This document shows positions 5,115 through 21,773 of a DNA stretch of 64,000 nt, piece after piece. This stretch comes from Desulfosporosinus acidiphilus SJ4. Its GTDB lineage: Bacteria > Bacillota > Desulfitobacteriia > Desulfitobacteriales > Desulfitobacteriaceae. Positions within the stretch are counted from its first letter, which is position 1. The number at the start of each line of letters is the position of its first letter. The position numbers and the translations under genes are program-made. The stretch spans positions 992,001 to 1,056,000 of the forward strand of contig NC_018068.1 of the NCBI RefSeq assembly GCF_000255115.2, given 5' to 3'. Below the pieces are notes generated by a model that was not told the DNA's origin, did not search any database, and saw nothing but the letters and a program-made list of their open reading frames with translations.

Positions 5115-5410
5115 AACGATAGCTCCTTTACAATTGGTCTTTTATGTAGAGTTCCCTTTGGGAGTTTTACTTGGGCATACGTATCTATAAATTCTTTATT
5201 ACTCACCCTGACTAAAGGGAATCATCGGTTTTGCTATGAAGTATAGTTTCCCCTTATTCGCAGGATTATGTTATTTGGCCTGAGCTTTGCCGCGCTTTCT
5301 TAAGAAACCATTTCGCAAACTCTATGTTAAGTGATTGCTTCCGTATACTTTTAAAACAATAGCTAACACTACCATAAATCAAAATGGACAGAATTGGAAG
5401 GGAAAAGATT

Positions 5411-5806
5411 TTGAAACTGCGAACATTTTTATTATTTAGCAGCTTGTCCTTAGTTTTGTTTGTAGGGATAACTCTCATATCGGCTCGACTTCCTTTTCCT
5501 ATGCCGGAGCAGGCCGTTGCGGGTAAGCTTGTTTGGCAAAGACATAACTGCATTAGCTGCCATTCCCTGTTTGGCAATGGAGGATATGCCGGCGAAGACT
5601 TAACTCATATCACAGGCCAAGAGACTCCGTCCTTTCTCGTCAATTATCTTATCAAGCCGCCGGTGATTCCCCCCAACAAATACACTCATCACCCAGGGCT
5701 CGATAAAAGGGATGCCCAAAATCTAGTGTCCTATCTGGAGTTTGTTCACACTATACCAACGTTGGGGTGGCCACCGGAACCGAAAAAGGCGGGGAAGAAC
5801 TCATGA
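5411..5806 (+). CDS. norC: NorC-like cytochrome c subunit of nitric oxide reductase
   Basis: The protein has 131 residues. One N-terminal membrane anchor (about residues 6-25) is followed by a single c-type heme site CISCH (47-51). The C-terminal LVSYLEFVHTIPTLGWPP matches the NorC ending. It would pass electrons to NorB for 2NO -> N2O on the outer membrane face. I prefer TTG 5411, which has GGAAGGG 8 nt upstream, over in-frame ATG 5384, which lacks an SD. The stop overlaps the norB start (ATGA), indicating translational coupling. Odd point: no Met occurs after the heme motif, although NorC normally supplies a distal Met. The corresponding stretch reads NKYTHHPG, so a His may replace it. Confidence 0.82.
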   Translation: MKLRTFLLFSSLSLVLFVGITLISARLPFPMPEQAVAGKLVWQRHNCISCHSLFGNGGYAGEDLTHITGQETPSFLVNYLIKPPVIPPNKYTHHPGLDKRDAQNLVSYLEFVHTIPTLGWPPEPKKAGKNS

Positions 5807-7191
5807 AGCTGCTAAATTTCTTACCATTTGCCGGAAAGACTCATAAATCCGTGAACCGCAAACAGCAGTTTTTAGCTCAGAAAATCAGCCGCAGATATTG
5901 TTTAACGGCTGTAAGTTTATTTGCCCTGCAAAGTGTAGTGGCAGTGGCCGGTGCCTTAGATTTGGTGATGCCTGATTTACCGTCGCCCATTCCTTTTGAA
6001 TTCGGCAGAGCAATTCATTTGGGTCTGGCTGATCTCTGGCCTCTCATTGGTACGATGGGGATGGTCTACTTTTTCATCACCGCTGAACTTAATCGAGAAA
6101 TCTATTCTCCTCCTTTAGCGCGTTGGCAGTATTGGATTGTAGTGGTTTTCAGTTTGGCAATTTTTGCGAGTCTCTCTTTAAAGATAGGTAACGGGCGGGA
6201 ATTTCTCGAAGGGTTGCCTGTTCTTTATTTAGGGATCTGCATATCCTTGGCGATAGCTTCTTATAACCTGGTTCGGACATTGTTAATCGATAAAAGGAAT
6301 GTTACGCCGGCGGCAGCAGTGATGACCGTTGGGATAGTTTTTCTCTTGCTTTTAATGCTGCCAAATACGATTACTTATCATAATCCTATTACTGATGAAG
6401 CAACAAAGTTCTGGATTGTTCACCTATGGGAGGAGATGGCCTTCGAACTTACTTCTGCTGGTTTTATTGCCGGTTTTTATGTGGTTTCCGGCTTGGCAGA
6501 TCGCAACAAAGTAGAACAGTGGCTCTATCTTGAGGCTTCATTAGCAGTTGTCGGCGGCTTATATGGAACTGGGCATCATTACTATTGGATTGGGTTTCCT
6601 GCGATCTGGTTAGTCCTTGGTTCATTAGTTAGTATCGTAGAAGTCATTCCCGTAGGGTTGTTAGTTCATATGACTTATAAGGGTTTAAAATCTAAAAATC
6701 TTAGAAGCAGGCGAGAAAAACTGACCCTTTGGCTGTTGCTTAGCAGTATCTTTTATCATATCACCGGCGCATCACTCTTGGGCCTGTTTATAACCATACC
6801 ATGGGTTAACCTGTATATGCACGGAACCTATGTTACTTCAGGCCACGCGCACCTGGCTTTATTTGGAAGCCTCGGTTTTGTGGTGTTGTCAGGGTGTTAT
6901 TACATCCTTAGCTGGGGGAGTGAACCCACCAATAAAGGCTATAAAAGCGGTGTTCTAGCGGTGGGGTTACTCAATGTTGGATTAGTCAGCATGGCTGTGG
7001 CTTTACTGATTGCCGGCTCGGTAGAGACCTACCTCTGGCGATATTTGGGCATGAATTTTGAGAAGGTTCGGATGCTCCTAAATCCCTATTTAATGATTCG
7101 GGCCTTAGGCGGAGGAATTTTCGCCCTTGGTGATCTGCTTTTGTTTTGGCTTTTTTACAAAACGTGGAAGCAAACCAAAGTTAAAAAATAA
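5803..7191 (+). CDS. norB: Nitric oxide reductase catalytic subunit NorB
   Basis: The protein has 462 residues and about 12 membrane spans, in the heme-copper oxidase superfamily. Ligands match cNOR: HLWEE gives H207 and E211, GHHYY gives H258 and H259 (FeB site), E280 is present, and SGHAH (348-350) gives the heme b3/b ligands. The N-terminal heme b His is probably H72. No fused cytochrome or quinol-binding N-terminal extension is seen, so this is the two-subunit NorCB type, less usual in Firmicutes than qNOR. The start ATG 5803 overlaps the norC TGA and has GGGGAAGA upstream. It probably detoxifies NO in an anaerobe; respiration on NO is the alternative. Confidence 0.9.
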   Translation: MKLLNFLPFAGKTHKSVNRKQQFLAQKISRRYCLTAVSLFALQSVVAVAGALDLVMPDLPSPIPFEFGRAIHLGLADLWPLIGTMGMVYFFITAELNREIYSPPLARWQYWIVVVFSLAIFASLSLKIGNGREFLEGLPVLYLGICISLAIASYNLVRTLLIDKRNVTPAAAVMTVGIVFLLLLMLPNTITYHNPITDEATKFWIVHLWEEMAFELTSAGFIAGFYVVSGLADRNKVEQWLYLEASLAVVGGLYGTGHHYYWIGFPAIWLVLGSLVSIVEVIPVGLLVHMTYKGLKSKNLRSRREKLTLWLLLSSIFYHITGASLLGLFITIPWVNLYMHGTYVTSGHAHLALFGSLGFVVLSGCYYILSWGSEPTNKGYKSGVLAVGLLNVGLVSMAVALLIAGSVETYLWRYLGMNFEKVRMLLNPYLMIRALGGGIFALGDLLLFWLFYKTWKQTKVKK

Positions 7192-12102: not shown

Positions 12103-12139
12103 AGTTATCATCGAAGGTAATTATAGATTTTACAAGTGG

Positions 12140-12163
12140 GCAGCCTATTAAGGCTGCTTTTTT
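12140..12163 (+). terminator. Rho-independent terminator of sugar aminotransferase unit
   Basis: GCAGCCT (12140-12146) and AGGCTGC (12151-12157) form a tight stem with loop ATTA, followed by six T. It lies 38 nt after the stop codon. Confidence 0.85.
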
Positions 12164-12624
12164 GTACTATAAGAGCCCCCCATGCCGCTGCGCAGCATCA
12201 GCATATTATGAAAATCTTTGTAAGCTTTACCGCCTCTCCAGGTCATGAGTTCACTCTAGTGGGCGAAGCTGAGTACCTTTGAGATCTTTAGCGTCAATGC
12301 AACCTTGCCATACCGCTGACCACGACGATAAGCGGACAAGCTTATTGCTACACTGCAACTCATTTCATATACTCTTGCCGTGCGGATTTGGTCGAGTTTC
12401 TCTGAAGCCAAAAAAGTGCGATACCCTCTATGAGAGACTATCGGAATAGCTAGAAGAGGCAGTCGATTTCGAGAAATTATGACTTACAGTATTTTCCGAA
12501 AATTGGCAACAAAATAATTGTTAAAATTGTCAGTAAAATGCGGTGTCAAGATTGGTTTTCTTTGAATTGTAAATTCAGGTGGCCGGGCTTAAGATGAATT
12601 CAACAAATCAAAGGAGGTATGGAC
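12164..12624. other. Intergenic region upstream of mtlA
   Basis: This holds a short repeat beginning AGCCCCCCATGCCGCT (12174) that resembles the one at 22014. It also holds a hairpin-bearing stretch (12325-12375, GATAAGC...GCTTAT) similar to 56202-56225. The last 120 bp are AT-rich and should contain the mannitol promoter and an MtlR site, but I cannot fix their positions. No gene is supported; a 24-codon frame at 12208 is not convincing. Confidence 0.45.
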
Positions 12625-14031
12625 ATGTCAGCAAATGCAAGTTCCTTTGTCAACAGCGGCGGAAAGACAAAAGCCAAGATCCAGCGGTTCGGCGGTTTCC
12701 TGGCCGGAATGGTTATCCCCAATATCGGCGCCTTTATTGCCTGGGGGTTGATCACAGCTTTTGTTATTCCAACGGGATGGTGGCCTAATGCTTATTTAGC
12801 GAAAATGGTCGGCCCGATGATTTCCTATCTGCTGCCCCTCTTAATCGGTTATACGGGCGGCAAACTCGTCTATGGTGTCCGGGGCGGAGTTGTCGGGGCC
12901 ATTGCCACCACGGGTGTCGTAGTGGGAGCTTCGATTCCAATGTTTCTCGGCGGTATGATTATGGGACCCTTTGGCGGCTGGATCATTAAAAAGTTTGACC
13001 AATTGGTTGAAGGAAAAGTGCCTACTGGTTTCGAAATGCTAGTTAACAATTACTCGGCGGGAATCTTGGGTGCCTTACTTGCGATCCTAGCCTATGTTGT
13101 CATCGAACCTGTTGTGCAAGGTTTTTCCAATGTCTTAGGCGGTGCTGCTGTTGCTGTCACCAATGCAGGATTACTTCCCCTGATTGCAATTTTTATCGAA
13201 CCCGGTAAGATCTTATTTTTAAATAACGCGATTAATCACGGGGTTCTCTCGCCTTTAGGAATTCAACAAGTTAAAGAAGTCGGCAAATCGATCTTCTTCC
13301 TCCTGGAAACAGATCCTGGTCCTGGCTTGGGAATCTTAGCCGCCTATTGGATGTTTGGCAAGGGTATGATTAAACAATCAGCTCCCGGCGCAATTATCAT
13401 TCAGTTCTTTGGCGGTATTCACGAAATCTATTTCCCTTATGTTCTTATGAAACCCCTCTTATTGCTTGCCGTTATCGGCGGAGGCATGGCCGCTGATTTT
13501 ACCTTCGTAGTAACCCATGCTGGATTAGTGGCTACGCCTTCACCGGGCAGTATTTTTGCCGAAATGACAATGACCCCTAAAGGCGGCTTCCTGCCAGTTA
13601 TGCTTGGCATCGCAGTCGGTGCGGTGGTTTCCTTCCTGATTGCTTCAGTTATTTTAAAACGGGATAAAACTGAAGCCAGCGATGACGATCTTTTCAGTGC
13701 TCAGCAAAAGGTTTCCCAATTGAAAGCTGAAAGTAAAGGCCAAAAATCCACCCAAATGCCAAAGCTGATCATCTTTGCCTGCGAGGCGGGTATGGGTTCA
13801 TCGGCTATGGGAGAGTCTATTCTCAAGAAAACAATTAAAGATGCAGGTTTAAGTATTGAAGTGCATCATTCGGCAGTCAACCAGATTCCCGCGGAAGCTG
13901 ATGTTGTCTTTACCCAGGAGGGACTGGCAAGTCGTGCTGCTGAGGTTGCCCCAAATGCGGAAATTGTCACTGTCAAAAACTTTTTAGATAAAGCAACGTA
14001 TGTGGAGTATGTCAACAGTTTAATTAAATAG
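12625..14031 (+). CDS. mtlA: PTS mannitol transporter EIICB (MtlA)
   Basis: The protein has 468 residues. The EIIC membrane domain (about 1-345) has [19 protein letters not shown], the conserved substrate region FLNNAINHG and the family signature [11 protein letters not shown]. The EIIB domain (about 375-468) has [12 protein letters not shown] with the phosphorylated Cys. It imports and phosphorylates D-mannitol to mannitol-1-phosphate; the EIIA part is the separate mtlF. I chose ATG 12625, 7 nt after AAAGGAGG, because ATG 12619 is too close to the SD. It heads an eight-gene PTS island running without a large gap to hprK. Confidence 0.93.
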
Positions 14032-14042
14032 GTTGTGAGAAT

Positions 14043-16088
14043 GTGGAAGAATTAACTGTTCGGCAAAAGTTCATATTGAATAATCTTATGGAGAAAGGTC
14101 CCTTTACACTTAAGGGCCTTTCTCAACAGATTGACGTCAGCGAGAGGACGATTTCCCGGGAGACTTCTGCTCTGAATGATTGGCTTAAACAGTACAAAGT
14201 GCGAATCTCGGAAAGCGGGGGAAAGCTCTATGTCGACGGAGCTGAACGGGATTTAGGCAAAGTCAGGGAAAGCTTTAAAGAAATCCCTCCTCTCTGGCTT
14301 CTTACCCAAGAGCAGCGTCAGGTTCTGATCACAGCTCAGCTCTTACTGGCGGATGAGCCTATTAAATCGGCTTATTTTAGTCATCAATTTAACGTTGTTG
14401 AAGGAACTATAGGTTTCTACCTGGACAAAATTCAAAGCTGGCTGCAGGAAAAAAACCTGACGTTAGTTCGCAAAAGGGGCTATGGCCTGGAAGTTAAAGG
14501 TACGGACTGGTTTAAGCGCAATGCGTTTGTTGATTTAATCTACAATTATAAACCTCTTAGTGAATTATTGACGTTTCTCTATGAAGACAGCAAAGATTAT
14601 TTGTTACTAGCCTTTTTTAAAGTAACATTTGGGGAAAAGTTAACCTCCTTAACCAAAGAAATAATCGATGAAATTTATGAAAACGTGTCTCTGACAAATG
14701 ACCTTAAGTTTTTCAGCGCTTATATCCACTTGCTTCTGGTCATTAAACGAGCTGAGAGTAAGAACCCAATTGAATTGCCCGCACAACTGGTACAGGATAT
14801 TCTCACTTCAGAGGAATTTGGCTTTATGACTCAAGTGGAGGAAATTCTCCACAACTACGATATCAATCTTCCTAAGAGTGAACTTGCCTATTTAGCGATT
14901 CACTTACAGGGGGACAGGAAGTTACTTGAGAATGAAGATGAAGCCAAGAGGCTGGGGTTCGAACTGGATGATTTGATTCGCGAAATGATTCATCTGACGG
15001 CAAAAAAACTTAATCAGGAGATCATTTGTGATGAAACTCTTCTCAAGGGGCTAATCCAGCATCTTAATCCGGCCTTATACCGTTTGACAATGGGGCTGGA
15101 AGTCAGAAATCCGATCATCAATGACATCAGGCACTACTACGAACAGCTATATAATGCGGTTTCTTATGCATGTCGGCATGTTTTCTCTAAATATAATTTA
15201 ACAATTCCTAGTAATGAAATTGGCTATCTTACTATGCATATTGGCGCTGCTCTCGAACGGCAGAATAAGCATGAGAAAAAAAACAGTATGCTGATCATTT
15301 GCCCCAATGGCATGAGTACAGCCAAAATGCTTTATCACAAAATCAGAAATGAATTTCCTGAATTCGAAACCATCGATATCTGTTCTTTGCGGGATATGCA
15401 CGATAAGATCAAAGATGGTTATACCATGGTGGTTTCAACGGTTAATATCGAGCCTAAAATCCTACCGGACCTGACAGTCATCTCTCCTTTTCTGCCTAAT
15501 GAAGATATCGAAAAAGTAAGGGAAACATTAGCGAGAGCAGGAAAAGAGGGGGCTTTAAAAAAGAACCCTTCCTTACCTGTCAGTGAGCCTGGTGAAATAG
15601 AAAAAGATTTTAACACGGCCAATATCATGCTCCAGAATTTTCAGCTGATACCTTTGGAGGCTGAAAGTTATCAGGAGATCATTAAAGAAATTGCCCAAGA
15701 AATAAATGCTACGCATTTAATGGATGATGAAGAAAGAATCTATGAGTTAATCACCAAACGAGAAGAAAAAGGGAATGTCATTATTCCCGGACGTCATATA
15801 GCCCTCATTCACTTTCGGGCGGAGGACACCGCCGGTCCGTTTGTGAGTGCTTATCGCCTCAAAGACTTTATAGAAATCAAAGGAGTCGGGTACTCTTCTG
15901 AAGAAGTTGATACGTTTCTCGTAATGCTGGCACGCAAAGATGAAAGCAATTATATTCTTGAGCTGCTGGGGAAAATCAGCGTAGCTTTGCTGGAGAATGA
16001 TTATTTTGCTGAGGTTTTGCGTTTCGGAGATTTGAAAGATATACGCAGCGAATTAGTTGAAATCCTAAACAAGGAGGAAGAGTCGTGA
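14043..16088 (+). CDS. mtlR: PRD-containing BglG-family transcriptional activator MtlR
   Basis: The protein has 681 residues, matching MtlR in length and order. It has an N-terminal HTH (GLSQQIDVSERTISRE), two PTS regulation domains (LAYLAIHLQGDR and IGYLTMHIGAALER hold phosphorylatable His), an EIIB-Gat-like domain (IICPNGMSTAKM with Cys) and a C-terminal EIIA-Mtl-like domain (IPGRHIALIHFRAED). Phosphorylation by HPr and EIIB sets activity so that the operon is on when mannitol is imported and better sugars are absent. It starts with GTG 14043, 11 nt after mtlA, with a weak SD. It overlaps mtlF by 4 nt. Confidence 0.92.
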   Translation: MEELTVRQKFILNNLMEKGPFTLKGLSQQIDVSERTISRETSALNDWLKQYKVRISESGGKLYVDGAERDLGKVRESFKEIPPLWLLTQEQRQVLITAQLLLADEPIKSAYFSHQFNVVEGTIGFYLDKIQSWLQEKNLTLVRKRGYGLEVKGTDWFKRNAFVDLIYNYKPLSELLTFLYEDSKDYLLLAFFKVTFGEKLTSLTKEIIDEIYENVSLTNDLKFFSAYIHLLLVIKRAESKNPIELPAQLVQDILTSEEFGFMTQVEEILHNYDINLPKSELAYLAIHLQGDRKLLENEDEAKRLGFELDDLIREMIHLTAKKLNQEIICDETLLKGLIQHLNPALYRLTMGLEVRNPIINDIRHYYEQLYNAVSYACRHVFSKYNLTIPSNEIGYLTMHIGAALERQNKHEKKNSMLIICPNGMSTAKMLYHKIRNEFPEFETIDICSLRDMHDKIKDGYTMVVSTVNIEPKILPDLTVISPFLPNEDIEKVRETLARAGKEGALKKNPSLPVSEPGEIEKDFNTANIMLQNFQLIPLEAESYQEIIKEIAQEINATHLMDDEERIYELITKREEKGNVIIPGRHIALIHFRAEDTAGPFVSAYRLKDFIEIKGVGYSSEEVDTFLVMLARKDESNYILELLGKISVALLENDYFAEVLRFGDLKDIRSELVEILNKEEES

Positions 16089-16525
16089 ATCAGGAAATAT
16101 TTAACGAAAACAATATAATTTTAAACCTGGCTTCTGAGTCCAAGAGAGAGGCTATTTTAAGAGCGGGTGAACTTCTGAAAAAGAACGGTTACGTGCAGCA
16201 TGACTATCTGGAAGGGATGGAAAAGCGGGAAGAGAGTTTAACAACGTATGTGGGAAATGGCGTTGCAATTCCTCATGGACTGCCGGAATATATCCAATAT
16301 ATCGTGAAATCCGGCCTGGTAATGCTCCAATATCCCGAAGGTGTCGATTTTGGCGAGGGGAATACAGCTTACGTTGTCATTGGAATTGCCGGCAAAGATG
16401 ACGAACATCTTGAGCTGCTGTCGACCATTGCTTTGGTCTGTCAAGAGGAAGAGAATGTAACGAAGCTGAAAGTAGCTTCAAGCAAACAGGAAGTTCTGGA
16501 AATTCTGGCCGGTGGTGATGATTAA
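16085..16525 (+). CDS. mtlF: PTS mannitol EIIA component MtlF
   Basis: The protein has 146 residues, the full length of a free-standing mannitol EIIA. The active-site His lies in NGVAIPHGLPE, and the fold motifs VMLQYPEGVDF and GIAGKDDEHLELLS are present. It transfers phosphate from HPr to the Cys of the MtlA EIIB domain. GTG 16085 overlaps the mtlR stop and is preceded by AAGGAGGAAGAG. It is directly followed, without spacing, by the phosphofructokinase gene, supporting one polycistronic message. Confidence 0.93.
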   Translation: MNQEIFNENNIILNLASESKREAILRAGELLKKNGYVQHDYLEGMEKREESLTTYVGNGVAIPHGLPEYIQYIVKSGLVMLQYPEGVDFGEGNTAYVVIGIAGKDDEHLELLSTIALVCQEEENVTKLKVASSKQEVLEILAGGDD

Positions 16526-17458
16526 ATGATCAAAACTGTCACCTTGAACGCTGCAGTGGATAAAACCGTTGAAGTACAGGATTTTCGCTTGGGGGCTGTC
16601 AATCGAATCTCTAAACTTCAATTGGATGCCGGAGGAAAAGGTATTAACGTCTCCAAGGTTATTCAAGCATTAAAGGGAGAAAGCATAGCCCTGGGTGCTT
16701 TGGCCGGGCGAAATGGCGAATTCATTCAAGCAGAACTGGAGCGCAGAGGGATTGTTCACGATTTTCTTTTCGTGCAAGGGGAAACGCGGGTCAACTTAAA
16801 AGTTGTGGATCCGGTGAATTCAACCTTTACGGATATCAACGAGCCGGGAATCGTGATCTCTGAAAGTGAGCTTGAGCAAATAGAGGCTAAAATATTTCAA
16901 GGCTTCACTTCTGAGACGAGCTTGGTTCTTTCCGGCAGTGTCCCCAGTTATGTAACTCCTTCCATTTACCGGCGCTGGCTGGAACGGGCCAAAGCCCTGG
17001 GGGGAAAAACGTTTTTAGACGCCGACGGTGAGTTGCTGCGTGAAGGGATTAAAGCAAAACCCTTTCTTGTCAAGCCCAATCTCCACGAGCTGGAAAAACT
17101 GGTAGGACAAAGGCTTCCTAATTTAGAGGACGTGGTTAAAGCTGCTCGGAATATACTGCACCAAGGGGTTGAGGTTCTAGTAGTTTCACTGGGTGCGGAG
17201 GGAGCGCTCTTCGCTTATGAGGATCAGGTCATTCAGGCCGAAGCCTTATCAGTTGACGTCAAAAGTACGGTTGGAGCGGGAGATTCTATGGTAGCTGCCC
17301 TGTCCCTGGTTCCGCCGGGTGAGGATTATCTGCAGCGGGCGGCCCGCTGGGCTATTGCTACAAGTGCGGCTCAAGTGACCACACCGGGCACTCAGCCGCC
17401 GGAGTTAGATACAGTGCTTGCTTATTTGAATCAGGTTCGTTATCGCAGGTTGACCTAA
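16526..17458 (+). CDS. fruK: 1-phosphofructokinase (PfkB family)
   Basis: The protein has 310 residues, a ribokinase/PfkB-fold sugar-phosphate kinase of the FruK/LacC group. Signature 1 is GGKGINVSKV (about 38-47). Signature 2 is STVGAGDSMVAA (about 250-261), with the catalytic Asp in GAGD. FruK converts D-fructose-1-phosphate to fructose-1,6-bisphosphate; tagatose-6-phosphate kinase is the close alternative. ATG follows the mtlF stop immediately. Its presence in a mannitol cluster is unexpected, because classical mannitol breakdown gives fructose-6-phosphate. It makes sense if the next gene makes fructose-1-phosphate. Confidence 0.88.
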   Translation: MIKTVTLNAAVDKTVEVQDFRLGAVNRISKLQLDAGGKGINVSKVIQALKGESIALGALAGRNGEFIQAELERRGIVHDFLFVQGETRVNLKVVDPVNSTFTDINEPGIVISESELEQIEAKIFQGFTSETSLVLSGSVPSYVTPSIYRRWLERAKALGGKTFLDADGELLREGIKAKPFLVKPNLHELEKLVGQRLPNLEDVVKAARNILHQGVEVLVVSLGAEGALFAYEDQVIQAEALSVDVKSTVGAGDSMVAALSLVPPGEDYLQRAARWAIATSAAQVTTPGTQPPELDTVLAYLNQVRYRRLT

Positions 17459-17563
17459 GTTGTAGTTAAGAGAAGAATAAGATATGATAGTTCGAATAAA
17501 AACAGACTTTGCTTAAGTGTGGAGTTTATGCATTTTGACATCAGGAGCAGGAGGAGTAATGTA

Positions 17564-18826
17564 ATGAAAACAAAAGCTGTGCGCTTATACGATGAAAATG
17601 ATCTGCGTTTAGAGGAGTTTGAACTCCCGGAGATTACCGATGAGGAAATTTTGGTGGAAGTCATCTCAGACAGTGTTTGCATGTCCACGTATAAAGCGGC
17701 AATTTTAGGGAAGAAGCACAAACGGGTACCTCAAGACATTGATGTTCATCCAATTATCGTGGGTCATGAGTTTGCAGGCAATATTGTCAAGGTCGGTGAA
17801 AAACTAAAGGGCCAATTTAAGGAAGGGAATAAGTTTGCCCTGCAGCCGGCTTTAAATTACAAAGGATCTATGTGGTCACCGGGCTATTCGTACCGCTATT
17901 TCGGCGGGGATGCCACCTATAATGTTATTCCCCGGGAGGTTATGGAAATCGGCTGTTTTCTTAACTATTCGGGAGAATCCTATTACGAAGCTTCCTTGGC
18001 AGAACCTATGTCTTGCATCATCGGAGCTTTTCATGCCAGCTATCATACGAGCATGGGCAGTTATGAGCACCGCATGGGAATTGTAGAGGGCGGTAAAATG
18101 GCCATGCTGGCTGCTGCCGGCCCCATGGGCTTAGGCGCTATCGACTATGCTCTGCATACGGATCGTCGTCCCTCATTGTTAGTTGTCACAGATATCGATG
18201 AAGAGAAACTTTCCCGGGCCCGTACCATCTTCACGGAACAGGAAGCAAAAAAATGCGGGGTTGAATTAATATTTGTCAATACCAAAGATATGGACGACGC
18301 TCCGGCGAAGTTGCGCGCTTTGACCGGTGACACAGGCTTTGATGACGTTTTCGTTTTTACTCCGATTAAACCTGTCGTAGAGCAAGGAGATCAGATCTTA
18401 GGCCGTGACGGATGTCTTAACTTTTTTGCCGGTCCGACGGATCCTCAATTCGGAGCACATTTGAACTTGTATAATGTCCATTACGGCTCGACTCATGTCA
18501 TGGGTACAACCGGCGGGAATACGGATGATCTTTTGGAATCGCTGAAATTGACGGAAGAAAAGAAAATTAATCCTGCCGTAATGGTCACACATGTTGGCGG
18601 TTTGGATGCCGTGGCAGAAACAGTTCTGAATCTGCCTAAAATTCCCGGCGGAAAAAAATTAATTTATACTCATATTAATATGGAATTAACGGCCATCGAG
18701 GATTTTGCCAAGCTGGGAGTTAATAATACGCATTTTGCCTGCCTGGCGGATATTGTTGCCAATAATAAAGGACTTTGGTGTGCTGAAGCAGAACGTTATT
18801 TGCTCGAAAAATGGAGGGATAAATAA
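17564..18826 (+). CDS. Zinc-binding medium-chain dehydrogenase, sorbose-1-phosphate reductase-like
   Basis: The protein has 420 residues. N-terminal GroES-like part: catalytic zinc ligands in DSVCMSTYKAA and GHEFAGNIVKVGE. Cofactor domain: GGKMAMLAAAGPMGLGAIDYA, then DIDEEKLSRA. It lacks the four-Cys structural zinc lobe. It is closest in character to L-sorbose-1-phosphate reductase (SorE), which works on the carbon next to the phosphorylated one. The start ATG 17564 has AGGAGGAG upstream. It lies between fruK and ptsH, overlapping ptsH by one base. I infer that it oxidises mannitol-1-phosphate at C2 to D-fructose-1-phosphate; sorbitol-6-phosphate or sorbose-1-phosphate chemistry is the alternative. 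Confidence 0.75.
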   Translation: MKTKAVRLYDENDLRLEEFELPEITDEEILVEVISDSVCMSTYKAAILGKKHKRVPQDIDVHPIIVGHEFAGNIVKVGEKLKGQFKEGNKFALQPALNYKGSMWSPGYSYRYFGGDATYNVIPREVMEIGCFLNYSGESYYEASLAEPMSCIIGAFHASYHTSMGSYEHRMGIVEGGKMAMLAAAGPMGLGAIDYALHTDRRPSLLVVTDIDEEKLSRARTIFTEQEAKKCGVELIFVNTKDMDDAPAKLRALTGDTGFDDVFVFTPIKPVVEQGDQILGRDGCLNFFAGPTDPQFGAHLNLYNVHYGSTHVMGTTGGNTDDLLESLKLTEEKKINPAVMVTHVGGLDAVAETVLNLPKIPGGKKLIYTHINMELTAIEDFAKLGVNNTHFACLADIVANNKGLWCAEAERYLLEKWRDK

Positions 18827-19095
18827 TGCTGACCCGTGAGTTGGTGATAAATAACAAATCAGGGCTTCACGCTCGTCCGGCATCCCTATGGGTTCAAACT
18901 GCAAGTCGTTTCCGCAGTAAAATTAAAATTAAGCACGGAAATTCCGTGGTGGACGGCAAAAGTATTTTAGGAATTCTTTCCTTAGGTCTGTCCACGGGCA
19001 GCGTTTTTGAGCTTTCTGCTGAGGGCGAGGATGAAGCAGAAGCTGTTGCCGCTCTGGAAAAATTAATGAGTGATCTTGAAACTCAAGATAAGTAG
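18826..19095 (+). CDS. ptsH: PTS phosphocarrier protein HPr
   Basis: The protein has 89 residues. NKSGLHARPAS holds the His phosphorylated by enzyme I. GKSILGILSLG holds the Ser phosphorylated by HPr kinase in Gram-positive bacteria. Both regulatory residues are therefore present, consistent with hprK lying two genes downstream. The start codon shares one base with the preceding stop, and GGAGGG lies upstream. It may be the only HPr of the cell or a mannitol-dedicated copy; the window cannot tell. Confidence 0.93.
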   Translation: MLTRELVINNKSGLHARPASLWVQTASRFRSKIKIKHGNSVVDGKSILGILSLGLSTGSVFELSAEGEDEAEAVAALEKLMSDLETQDK

Positions 19096-19104
19096 GTTGA
19101 TCGT

Positions 19105-20802
19105 ATGGAAAATAATATTTGGCACGGACTTGGGGTCTCGGCGGGACGTGCCGCCGGACCAATCTGGTATATGAAGGAATTCCATACAGATGCTGCAGGG
19201 GAAATTTCCGGGGTGCGTTCGGCGGACGAGGAAATGGCCCGGTTGCAGCAAGCCGTAACCCGGACCGAAAAGAATTTAACCGCTCTGGAAGAGAAAGTAA
19301 AGGCTGAACAAGGCGAGGAAGTAGCTCAAATATTCGTGGCCCACAAACTCTTACTCAGCGATCCTTCGTTTGTTGGCGAAGCTTATCAACGCTTAGAAAA
19401 AGGGCAGTTAAGCGCGGAACAGGCTCTTCAGGAAGTAGCGGCCGAAGCAGTGCAGATGCTGCGCAGTCTTGATGACCCCTATTTTCAAGAGCGCGCAGTC
19501 GATGTCCAGGATGTTTTAGGCCAACTATTAAAGAGCCTTCAGAATGTACAAGAGGATGCGGCCGATCTCTTCCCCCCAACGGGAAATTATGTGGTTTTGG
19601 CGGATGAGTTGACCCCAGCCCAAACCATTGCTTTACCTAAAGACAGAGTTCTGGGTTTTATCGTGCGCCAGGGTGGGAAAACTTCTCATGCAGCAATTTT
19701 GGCCCGCACCTATGGTATTCCGGCTCTCGTCGGCATGGCGGAAGGCTGGGATGCCTTAACCCAGCAGAAATGGCTTGAATTGGACGGTGACGAAGGCTGG
19801 GCTCGGCCATCTGCCGAGAATCAGGTTGCTTTTGCCAATAACGGCGAAGGGAACGACGATATTTCTGGCGAAAGTCCCTTGCTTAGGGGAATGATTTTTG
19901 CAGCGAATATCGGCAGCCCCGGTGACTTGCCTCTTGTCGAGAAGTTTAAGGCTCAGGGGATCGGATTATATCGAACAGAATTTTTGTTTATGGGAGAAGA
20001 ACTTCCCAGTGAAGAAGAGCAGCTGGAAGCCTATCGTCAAGTCGTTGCTGCCTGTTCACCCCATTTGACGGTCATTAGGACCCTAGACATCGGGGGAGAT
20101 AAAAAAGCCCCGGCTTTGCATCTTCCCCAAGAGAAAAACCCCTTTCTCGGCGTTCGTGCCCTGCGGCTTACTTTACGGCGTCCTGAACTTTTTCGGCAGC
20201 AGCTGCGGGCCATTTGGCGAGCCTCTGCAGCAGGACCAACGGCGATTATGTTTCCCATGATTGCAACGATAGAGGAACTTGAAAGAGCCAAGGAAAACCT
20301 TTGGGCAGCGCGAGAGGAAGTTTTGCAGGCAGGTTATGAGATCGGAGAGCTTCAGGTCGGGATGATGATTGAAATTCCTTCGGCAGCCTGGCTGGCGGAC
20401 AAATTCGCTCCTAAGGTTGATTTTTTCTCAATCGGCACCAACGACTTGACTCAGTATATGTTGGCTGTAGACAGGGAAAACCCTGAACTGGCTGAGCTCA
20501 ATCAGCCTTATCATCCCTCAGTTTTGGCTATGATCGCCCGAGTCAGTCAGGCTGCCCTGCAAAACGGGATTTGGACAGGGATTTGCGGTGAAGCCGGAGG
20601 AGACCCGCTTCTAGCGCCTTTCTTCAAAGCAGTCGGTATCAAAGAGTTAAGTATGGCACCGGGGTCTTTAGCTAAAGTTCGAACCGCCTTAGCAAAGCTG
20701 GAGCAGTCAAAGGAAGAACAAGAAAGATTGGTAAGTTCTGTTCTGGATTGCGCATCTACTGCTGAAGTTGTAAATACCCTTCAAGCCTATAAGGCAATCT
20801 GA
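19105..20802 (+). CDS. ptsI: PTS enzyme I (phosphoenolpyruvate-protein phosphotransferase)
   Basis: The protein has 565 residues, normal for enzyme I. The phospho-His domain motif GGKTSHAAILART, the PEP-binding barrel motifs GIGLYRTEFLFM and DFFSIGTNDLTQYM, and GICGEAGGDP near the C-terminus are all intact. It takes phosphate from PEP and gives it to HPr. The gene begins 9 nt after ptsH, so the two are clearly coupled. Encoding ptsHI next to a single sugar PTS suggests that mannitol (or few sugars) is the main PTS substrate of this organism. Confidence 0.94.
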   Translation: MENNIWHGLGVSAGRAAGPIWYMKEFHTDAAGEISGVRSADEEMARLQQAVTRTEKNLTALEEKVKAEQGEEVAQIFVAHKLLLSDPSFVGEAYQRLEKGQLSAEQALQEVAAEAVQMLRSLDDPYFQERAVDVQDVLGQLLKSLQNVQEDAADLFPPTGNYVVLADELTPAQTIALPKDRVLGFIVRQGGKTSHAAILARTYGIPALVGMAEGWDALTQQKWLELDGDEGWARPSAENQVAFANNGEGNDDISGESPLLRGMIFAANIGSPGDLPLVEKFKAQGIGLYRTEFLFMGEELPSEEEQLEAYRQVVAACSPHLTVIRTLDIGGDKKAPALHLPQEKNPFLGVRALRLTLRRPELFRQQLRAIWRASAAGPTAIMFPMIATIEELERAKENLWAAREEVLQAGYEIGELQVGMMIEIPSAAWLADKFAPKVDFFSIGTNDLTQYMLAVDRENPELAELNQPYHPSVLAMIARVSQAALQNGIWTGICGEAGGDPLLAPFFKAVGIKELSMAPGSLAKVRTALAKLEQSKEEQERLVSSVLDCASTAEVVNTLQAYKAI

Positions 20803-20906: not shown

Positions 20907-21773
20907 CTGGTAACGGTTAGACAATTAGTGGAGGAATTTGAGTTTAGAGTCATAGCAGGCAAAAGGGGTCTGGAGAAGGAAATTACTGACTACAGTCTTA
21001 AACGACCCAGCGCCGAACTGGTGGGTTATCTAACCTATTTGACTCCCCAGAGGATTCAGATTTATGGACGCACTGAATTGGGCTTGTTTGAAGAGCTTTC
21101 TCCTCACCTGCGTTATGATAATTTGGCCAAGGTTATGATTGGGGAAGTACCCTGCCTCATTGTTACAAGAGGGCTGCCGATTCCCCCGGAATTTATCCAG
21201 TTAGCGGAGGAAAGAGATATACCGCTGTTGGCCAGTGATCGCTCCACCACGCAGCTTTATTATTTGCTGATTCGCTTTCTCGCTAATCGCTTGGCGCCTT
21301 CAACTCTGGTTCATGGGGTTCTGGTGGATGTTTTTGGCGTGGGGGTTTTGATTACCGGAGACAGCGGCATTGGGAAAAGTGAAACTGCCTTGGAGTTAAT
21401 TCGCGGCGGGCATTTATTAGTGGCTGATGATGCCGTTGAAGTGCAGCGGGTTGATGAGGAAAATTTGCATGGCAGAGCACCGCAATCCATTCGCCATCTT
21501 CTCGAAGTAAGGGGCCTTGGCATTTTAGATGTCACGAAACTCTTTGGGGCAGGGTCTGTTCGTGAAGAAAAGGAAATCAATCTTCTCGTGGAATTAGAAG
21601 AATGGGAAGAAGGGAAGTATTATGACCGCTTGGGTCTTGATCCTCCTCAAACCTCAACAATTTTAGGTATCCCTGTCCCCAAAGTGACAATTCCGGTTCG
21701 CCCAGGCCGTCATCTCGCCTCCATCATCGAGGTAGCGGTTATGCAGAACCGCCTGAGAAGCAGGCGGAAATGA
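20907..21773 (+). CDS. hprK: HPr kinase/phosphorylase
   Basis: The protein has about 288 residues. Visible are the Walker A motif GDSGIGKSETALEL, the catalytic ADDAVEV, the HprK signature RGLGILDVTKLFGAGSV and the C-terminal IPVRPGRHLA. It phosphorylates HPr on Ser to drive carbon catabolite control and reverses the reaction with phosphate. The start is probably CTG 20907: GGGAGGAGA lies 6 nt upstream and the resulting MVTVRQLVEEFEF N-terminus fits family length. GTG 20928 would also be in frame but lacks an SD and would lose the first strand. It is slightly shorter at the C-terminus than B. subtilis HprK. Confidence 0.9.
   Translation: MVTVRQLVEEFEFRVIAGKRGLEKEITDYSLKRPSAELVGYLTYLTPQRIQIYGRTELGLFEELSPHLRYDNLAKVMIGEVPCLIVTRGLPIPPEFIQLAEERDIPLLASDRSTTQLYYLLIRFLANRLAPSTLVHGVLVDVFGVGVLITGDSGIGKSETALELIRGGHLLVADDAVEVQRVDEENLHGRAPQSIRHLLEVRGLGILDVTKLFGAGSVREEKEINLLVELEEWEEGKYYDRLGLDPPQTSTILGIPVPKVTIPVRPGRHLASIIEVAVMQNRLRSRRK

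Follow-up and report, generated by a model that had tools for sequence, protein, structure and literature searches.

A SorE-like dehydrogenase in place of MtlD in a mannitol phosphotransferase cluster of Desulfosporosinus acidiphilus, and a predicted route through fructose-1-phosphate

Introduction

Mannitol catabolism by the phosphotransferase system (PTS), in its textbook form, passes through fructose-6-phosphate, and MtlD oxidises mannitol-1-phosphate at C-5 to give this product. SorE acts beside the phosphorylated carbon, interconverting glucitol-6-phosphate and L-sorbose-1-phosphate. In mannitol-1-phosphate and glucitol-6-phosphate the three carbons closest to the phosphate are configured alike, the far carbon being the only point of difference, and a SorE-type reaction on mannitol-1-phosphate gives D-fructose-1-phosphate, the substrate of 1-phosphofructokinase (FruK). 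In this study we analysed a stretch of 64,000 nucleotides of the Desulfosporosinus acidiphilus SJ4 genome, referred to here as the window (G000:C3:992001-1056000), in which genes for a mannitol PTS are followed by fruK and by the gene of a SorE-like zinc dehydrogenase, here labelled SorEL.

The classical mtlA-(R)-F-D operon (MtlD, EC 1.1.1.17), found for example in Thermoanaerobacter kivui, shares with this cluster its transporter family, activator and IIA and mostly its gene order. Here, however, an unrelated zinc dehydrogenase replaces MtlD, usually together with fruK in the window's clade, and the predicted product is fructose-1-phosphate, whereas the classical product is fructose-6-phosphate. 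Growth of T. kivui on mannitol requires mtlD, and growth on fructose requires fruK, according to the accessible part of the report (PMC12724272). Mannitol carbon likewise passes through fructose-1-phosphate and FruK in Haloarcula hispanica, as deletion mutants indicate, but there uptake is by an ATP-binding cassette (ABC) transporter and mannitol is converted to free fructose, followed by ketohexokinase, with no PTS or mannitol-1-phosphate step (PMC11519228, in the text available). The closest account in print concerns mannitol-fermenting Defluviitalea, for which the legend of Fig. 3 lists MPDH and FRUK and the background section names fructose-6-phosphate (PMC4818487, those sections). No paper on the conversion of mannitol-1-phosphate to fructose-1-phosphate turned up in the accessible parts of the open literature searched.

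Results

Organisation of the cluster

Open reading frames (ORFs) and profiles give the gene order mtlA-mtlR-mtlF-fruK-SorEL for positions 12619-18826, continuing into ptsH-ptsI (Table 1). The genome has 5.0 Mb and a completeness of 99.99%. A sequence-only reading of the same DNA had proposed this content, with a SorE-like dehydrogenase and no mtlD in the cluster, and all of this is borne out. Its mtlA stands as a gene, with a trivial change of start: it had placed this at 12625, the second in-frame methionine, and the ORF begins at 12619.

Table 1. Genes of the mtl cluster and its downstream flank, with positions counted from the first nucleotide of the window
Gene and product	Positions	Strand	Evidence
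mtlA, mannitol PTS IICB (IIC-IIB)	12619..14031	+	TIGR00851 506.8 bits (cut-off 468.4); NF011663 638.7 (cut-off 589)
mtlR, PRD/EIIA-type transcriptional activator	14043..16088	+	HTH_11, Mga, PRD and PTS_EIIA_2 domains
mtlF, mannitol PTS IIA	16085..16525	+	PF00359 (EIIA_2) 118.1 bits; C-terminal part of NF011663
fruK, 1-phosphofructokinase	16526..17458	+	TIGR03828 equivalog 321.8 bits (cut-off 292)
SorEL, zinc medium-chain dehydrogenase, predicted mannitol-1-phosphate 2-dehydrogenase	17564..18826	+	PF08240 and PF00107; 46-48% identity to annotated SorE
ptsH (HPr)	18826..19095	+	TIGR01003 92 bits (cut-off 47.9)
ptsI (enzyme I)	19105..20802	+	TIGR01417 502.1 bits (cut-off 341.7)
hprK, HPr(Ser) kinase/phosphatase, downstream of the cluster	20928..21773	+	TIGR00679 349.2 bits (cut-off 240)

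The gaps from mtlA to ptsI are short (11, -4, 0, 105, -1 and 9 bp), which makes a single transcript plausible. The frames of the cluster are intact and have ribosome sites, including a GGAGG upstream of the SorEL ATG, and between the upstream genes and the cluster there is a terminator-like hairpin (12138-12159), although this signal is weak, with 15 such matches compared to 11.0 in shuffles. HprK is 83-91% identical in all five same-genus relatives that carry the cluster.

MtlA exceeds the curated cut-off for mannitol IIC and, as its interleaving with the MtlA proteins of mtlD operons on the tree described below suggests, would carry mannitol. FruK scores above the 1-phosphofructokinase cut-off and below those of the lacC (143.6 against 409.6 bits) and 6-phosphofructokinase II (144 against 353) models, and its closest PDB sequences, 2abq and 9qv0, are named fructose-1-phosphate kinase or 1-phosphofructokinase; it is a predicted fructose-1-phosphate kinase. 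No NCBIfam model exceeds its cut-off for SorEL.

MtlD and fructose enzymes elsewhere in the genome

The genome-wide search for mtlD that the sequence-only reading had called for found no MtlD-type protein in the cluster or the genome with the PF08125 and PF01232 profiles and the MtlD models. Each of the two profiles matches the same two long proteins only, with frames of 490 amino acids (aa; L001) and 547 aa (L002). The classical mtlAFD set has an MtlD of about 380-400 aa with both domains, and neither long frame reaches an MtlD model. L001 was rejected as a hidden MtlD, since it scores as a tagaturonate reductase with 730.8 bits (cut-off 359). L002 reaches no MtlD model at 1e-20 and is encoded 0.8 kb downstream of a mannonate dehydratase gene; it is for these reasons probably a fructuronate reductase, though its 122.9 bits fall under that model's cut-off of 603.

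The second fruK of the genome belongs to an operon DeoR-fruK-fructose IIA-fructose IIBC-ptsH-ptsI, which has its own HPr and enzyme I. The fruK of the window is therefore an extra copy, and its product is 39% identical to the FruK of the fructose operon. The same genome has two ptsH-ptsI pairs, one tied to mannitol (18826-20802) and one to fructose (L041:1758-3729). Two proteins match the 6-phosphofructokinase family PF00365, which is found in 82 of 82 genomes of the class, and absence of 6-phosphofructokinase was rejected on this ground as the cause of the route.

Conservation among relatives

Within the window's own class mtlA occurs in 8 of the 82 genomes (nine loci), and SorEL is present in all eight, at 76-95% identity. 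In every one of the nine loci mtlR directly follows mtlA, and fruK stands between mtlF and SorEL, directly before the latter. A ninth genome (G045) has a partial mtlR followed by mtlF-fruK-SorEL at a contig edge; beyond these genomes the identity of SorEL matches in the class falls to 28%. The sole class protein of MtlD size, a 391-aa frame that is MtlD by profile, belongs to G018, a genome with no mtlA match. It lies beside what by eye is a HAD phosphatase-like gene (L063:165-2067), which could mean synthesis of mannitol and not its breakdown. G001 has two copies of the mtl cluster (L051 and L052), one of them flanked by transposase-like genes (by eye).

At least 576 relatives of SorEL turned up when 84,980 species genomes were scanned. 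The best 80, with identity of at least 65%, were retained; being those most similar to the window's SorEL, these 80 loci over-represent its clade. Within 8 kb of SorEL, mtlA is found in 65, fruK in 66, both in 54 and neither in three, and mtlD and sorbose PTS subunits in none. The 50 loci with at least 5 kb on each side have mtlA in 44, fruK in 39 and both in 34. The pairing of fruK and the dehydrogenase beside mtlA, whose conservation the sequence-only reading had left to be checked, thus extends well beyond this genome.

Of the 22 isolate genomes among these, 19 lack any PF08125 protein whose frame is shorter than 470 aa. The exceptions are H. polyolivorans, with a true MtlD in a cluster other than that of SorEL; Faecalicoccus pleomorphus, with two adjoining family members of MtlD size away from mtl; and Butyricicoccus pullicaecorum, with a 423-aa PF08125 frame that we read as a shortened hexuronate-type reductase. 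In Caproiciproducens faecalis (L102:5989-13312) fruK-SorEL is followed by an ABC importer in place of the PTS. This importer possibly takes up a phosphorylated polyol; the top profiles shown for it were of aminoethylphosphonate, polyamine and ferric types, all below cut-off, and no sugar-phosphate importer was identified among them.

Exchange of SorEL and MtlD behind the same transporter

The relation between the two dehydrogenases was followed in the class of Clostridium rhizosphaerae (G085), from which 392 genomes with completeness of at least 95% were drawn. Thirty-four had an mtlA match, two of which (G352 and G477) were dropped as fragments (E about 1e-4). SorEL beside mtlA was found in 13 of the remaining 32 and MtlD in 18; none has both and one has neither (Fisher p = 4.8e-9; with G085 left out, the genome on which the sample was centred and which was chosen because it has SorEL, p = 1.2e-8). 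Two genomes of this sample, G087 and G090, are also among the relatives from the SorEL scan. No PF08125 protein shorter than 480 aa occurs in the 13 SorEL genomes. In 16 of the 18 MtlD genomes, MtlD and mtlA share a contig and are no more than about 5 kb apart; in G361 and G376 MtlD is on a separate contig and the mtlA contig ends nearby. The MtlD frame of G337 has only 190 aa. None of these 18 genomes has SorEL next to mtlA, and a SorE-family protein is found elsewhere in G154, G189 and G230. There are therefore two operon forms, mtlA-R-F-mtlD and mtlA-R-F-(fruK)-SorEL, with the dehydrogenase mostly in the same slot. In the genome with neither, G235, mtlA is on a contig of 6,531 bases, where mtlF-mtlA accompanies an SDR-type dehydrogenase 32% identical to SorD (L250:2194-5430), perhaps a third variant or one for another substrate.

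A tree of 63 MtlA sequences was built from the window, 38 SorEL-type loci selected from those available, 17 loci that carry both mtlA and mtlD, and L264, L265 and L250. On this quick tree, which has SH-aLRT support only, the partner label changes between SorEL and mtlD at least eight times, six of these being forced by well-supported branches. The window falls in a SorEL clade of 14 rows, whose sister group consists of three mtlD-type MtlAs. The two dehydrogenases therefore look interchangeable, and the alternation of dehydrogenases among close transporters argues for a single substrate, mannitol. This comparison of gene neighbourhoods and trees gives good support to an exchange between SorEL and MtlD.

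SorEL in the SorE family

SorEL belongs to the same family as SorE of the sor operons, the L-sorbose-1-phosphate reductase, with 46-48% identity to the annotated proteins of Klebsiella, Citrobacter and Serratia. Residues C39, H68, E69 and E147 are invariant in 39 of 39 aligned sequences, SorE included, and in an alignment they match the zinc-site positions of sorbitol dehydrogenase; we take these positions to be the catalytic zinc ligands. SorEL as a plain SorE was rejected, as it lies outside the clade of sor-operon SorE and its neighbours are mtlA and fruK, not a sorbose PTS and SorD; its proposed substrate is mannitol-1-phosphate. On a family tree of 102 sequences (112 collected, 10 repeats dropped), a quick tree with midpoint root and long branches among the SorE rows, a branch with support 100 parts all mtlA- or cmtA-linked members from sor-PTS SorE. 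Three members without mtl linkage, L130, L137 and L249, lie near the base on the mtl side, and an SDR resembling SorD is found near the SorE-family genes of L137 and L249.

The fold is that of the medium-chain dehydrogenases (PF08240/PF00107), and the structure model (pLDDT 87.4, best Z 30.1 to 6ie0) confirms the fold only. Galactitol-1-phosphate dehydrogenase 4a2c has Foldseek rank 42 and is not among the 50 Z-scored matches listed, which excludes nothing. A Rossmann strand ends in D210, which suggests NAD as the cofactor. Residues 283-316 (DGCLNFFAGP...NVHY) are strongly conserved and have an AlphaFold pLDDT below 50; they may form a substrate-binding element special to SorE and SorEL.

Two lineages of FruK

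Of 73 FruK sequences compared, 59 adjoin SorEL and 10 adjoin MtlA. Those beside MtlA or SorEL split into two lineages, the second consisting of 13 together with a FruK from L113 that belongs to a fructose PTS operon. The transporter of this operon exceeds the fructose IIC, IIB and IIA cut-offs, and the operon lies directly upstream of SorEL-DeoR-mtlA. For twelve of these 13, comparison gave 57-62% identity to the L113 fructose FruK and 30-39% to that of the window; one of the lineage, at L107, passes the 1-phosphofructokinase cut-off (342.3 against 292). With two lineages, it seems that 1-phosphofructokinase was joined to mtlA/SorEL more than once.

The cmt operon of Escherichia coli

E. coli has a cmtB-cmtA-yggP-glpX-fumE-yggC operon (L155:8127-13481, NZ_CP137739.1) in which a mannitol-type PTS is combined with YggP, a member of the SorEL clade with about 56% identity. 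Both YggP and its Photobacterium homologue, each adjoining a mannitol-type PTS, fall on the mtl side of the SorE-family tree, and Photobacterium (L271) retains the order IIA-MtlA-SorEL-MtlR-kinase family. Unlike the window, the E. coli operon has no fruK, but contains the fructose-bisphosphatase gene glpX (TIGR00330, 588 bits) and a kinase-family protein. In the excerpts available, a table describes the IIA as 'mannitol-specific cryptic' and YggP as 'uncharacterized' (PMC7432712), and open literature mentions yggP in gene lists or as a peptide string, giving no function. The likeness suggests that cmtAB-yggP is a mannitol route through fructose-1-phosphate. The presence of glpX would make sense if fructose-6-phosphate is skipped, because hexose phosphate would have to be remade from fructose-1,6-bisphosphate.

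Other features of the window

A gene pair at 5384-7191 encodes a small CxxCH protein and a large multi-spanning membrane protein, which presumably resemble nitric oxide reductase NorCB, with no NCBIfam match at 1e-20. At 820-1719 lies a secreted-looking protein with several near-identical repeats of about 45 residues (by eye).

Discussion

We consider it likely that the cluster encodes a PTS mannitol route by way of fructose-1-phosphate. MtlA and MtlF, with HPr and enzyme I, would import mannitol as mannitol-1-phosphate; SorEL, as a zinc and probably NAD-dependent enzyme, would oxidise C-2 to give D-fructose-1-phosphate; and FruK would phosphorylate this at C-6 to fructose-1,6-bisphosphate, which would join glycolysis below 6-phosphofructokinase. 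With SorEL thereby replacing MtlD, the cluster would encode all steps of a second kind of mannitol PTS pathway. That mannitol is the substrate here, that C-2 is the carbon oxidised and that flux runs through fructose-1-phosphate is what we infer: the substrate is pointed to by the exchange of SorEL with MtlD, and the carbon and product by the kinship with SorE and the presence of FruK. The sequence-only reading had arrived at the same product from SorE chemistry. That argument is sound on textbook stereochemistry, and the exclusion of MtlD by SorEL, the eight or more changes of partner and the two FruK lineages now lend its prediction comparative support.

It is conceivable, though unlikely, that SorEL is simply an unrelated replacement of MtlD which still oxidises C-5 to fructose-6-phosphate, fruK being a hitch-hiker or serving fructose. 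The exchange seen on the MtlA tree would fit this equally well, fructose-6-phosphate could be used, as PF00365 is present throughout the class, and fruK is missing from 9 of the 13 SorEL clusters of the Clostridium rhizosphaerae class sample. However, the closest named kin of SorEL works beside the phosphate, and fruK is near SorEL in 66 of the 80 loci, in two lineages, compared to one of 17 mtlD clusters. Acetoanaerobium pronyense also argues for the C-2 reaction. It has mtlA-fruK-SorEL (L088), and the part of its description available lists fructose as unused, with mannitol absent from Table 7 (PMC11253131), so that the FruK of its cluster need not serve fructose. Less likely again is that the cluster handles another hexitol or a pentitol such as sorbitol, galactitol or arabitol, so that FruK would act on L-sorbose-1-phosphate or a tagatose phosphate. 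SorE itself interconverts glucitol-6-phosphate and L-sorbose-1-phosphate, the kinase family of FruK includes tagatose kinases and the basal members L130, L137 and L249 lie outside mtl clusters; against this, MtlA scores over the mannitol cut-offs and is interleaved with the MtlA of mtlD operons, FruK scores far higher on the 1-phosphofructokinase model than on lacC, and no sorbose PTS occurs near any of the 80 loci. Cluster-bearing H. polyolivorans grows on mannitol and not on sorbitol, dulcitol, xylitol or L-sorbose (PMC10536098, accessible text), but has MtlD as well. That the neighbourhood arose by chance, or that the cluster has decayed and is silent, is very improbable: gene order is conserved in the class and beyond, the frames are intact with ribosome sites and SorEL identity in the class is high.

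Several observations weigh against the route through fructose-1-phosphate. In G189 a single mtl cluster (L252:4318-14000) contains both mtlD and fruK, and a SorEL lies elsewhere (L249). The MtlA and FruK of this genome group among those of SorEL type, so it looks like a case in which mtlD later displaced SorEL, but FruK could also be doing something else there. H. polyolivorans combines a SorEL cluster with its real MtlD elsewhere, and in the available text its authors credit mtlD (PMC10536098). There is no fruK within 8 kb in 14 of the 80 loci, nor in the stretches read around those nine SorEL clusters of the class sample, where its excess near SorEL (4 of 13 SorEL against 1 of 17 mtlD clusters) does not reach significance (p = 0.14). 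Among the 13 second-lineage loci, four (L126, L129, L138 and L151) have fruK on the opposite strand. Divergent clusters with SorEL at 54-59% identity (L243-L246 and L248) likewise have no fruK in the cluster. Clusters without fruK could be served by a housekeeping FruK. The accessible open literature searched gave no enzyme assay of a SorEL and no report of mannitol growth in Desulfosporosinus, and none of mannitol growth for Thermohalobacter or A. pronyense; D. fructosivorans appears in the available part of PMC5760507 merely as a citation, with nothing further. In favour of the route, Caloramator quimbayensis has the full mtlA-R-F-fruK-SorEL cluster (L081) and a single PF08125 protein, whose 485-aa frame is not of MtlD size, and it uses mannitol according to the accessible text of PMC6110305, which cites the species description.

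It is rather probable, in our view, that an undescribed mannitol-1-phosphate 2-dehydrogenase activity marks out a second mannitol pathway of PTS type, one common among Clostridia, gut lineages included, and repeatedly exchanged with MtlD behind the same transporter, with mannitol and fructose catabolism merging at fructose-1-phosphate, and that this also explains cmtAB-yggP of E. coli. Such a pathway would enter glycolysis below 6-phosphofructokinase. If true, mannitol could come under the fructose-1-phosphate signal, and growth on mannitol alone would call for fructose-bisphosphatase. It would also assign a role to many proteins at present named only 'zinc-binding dehydrogenase', among the at least 576 relatives of SorEL, not all of which need be linked to mtl, and would make the E. 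coli cmtAB-yggP operon a testable prediction.

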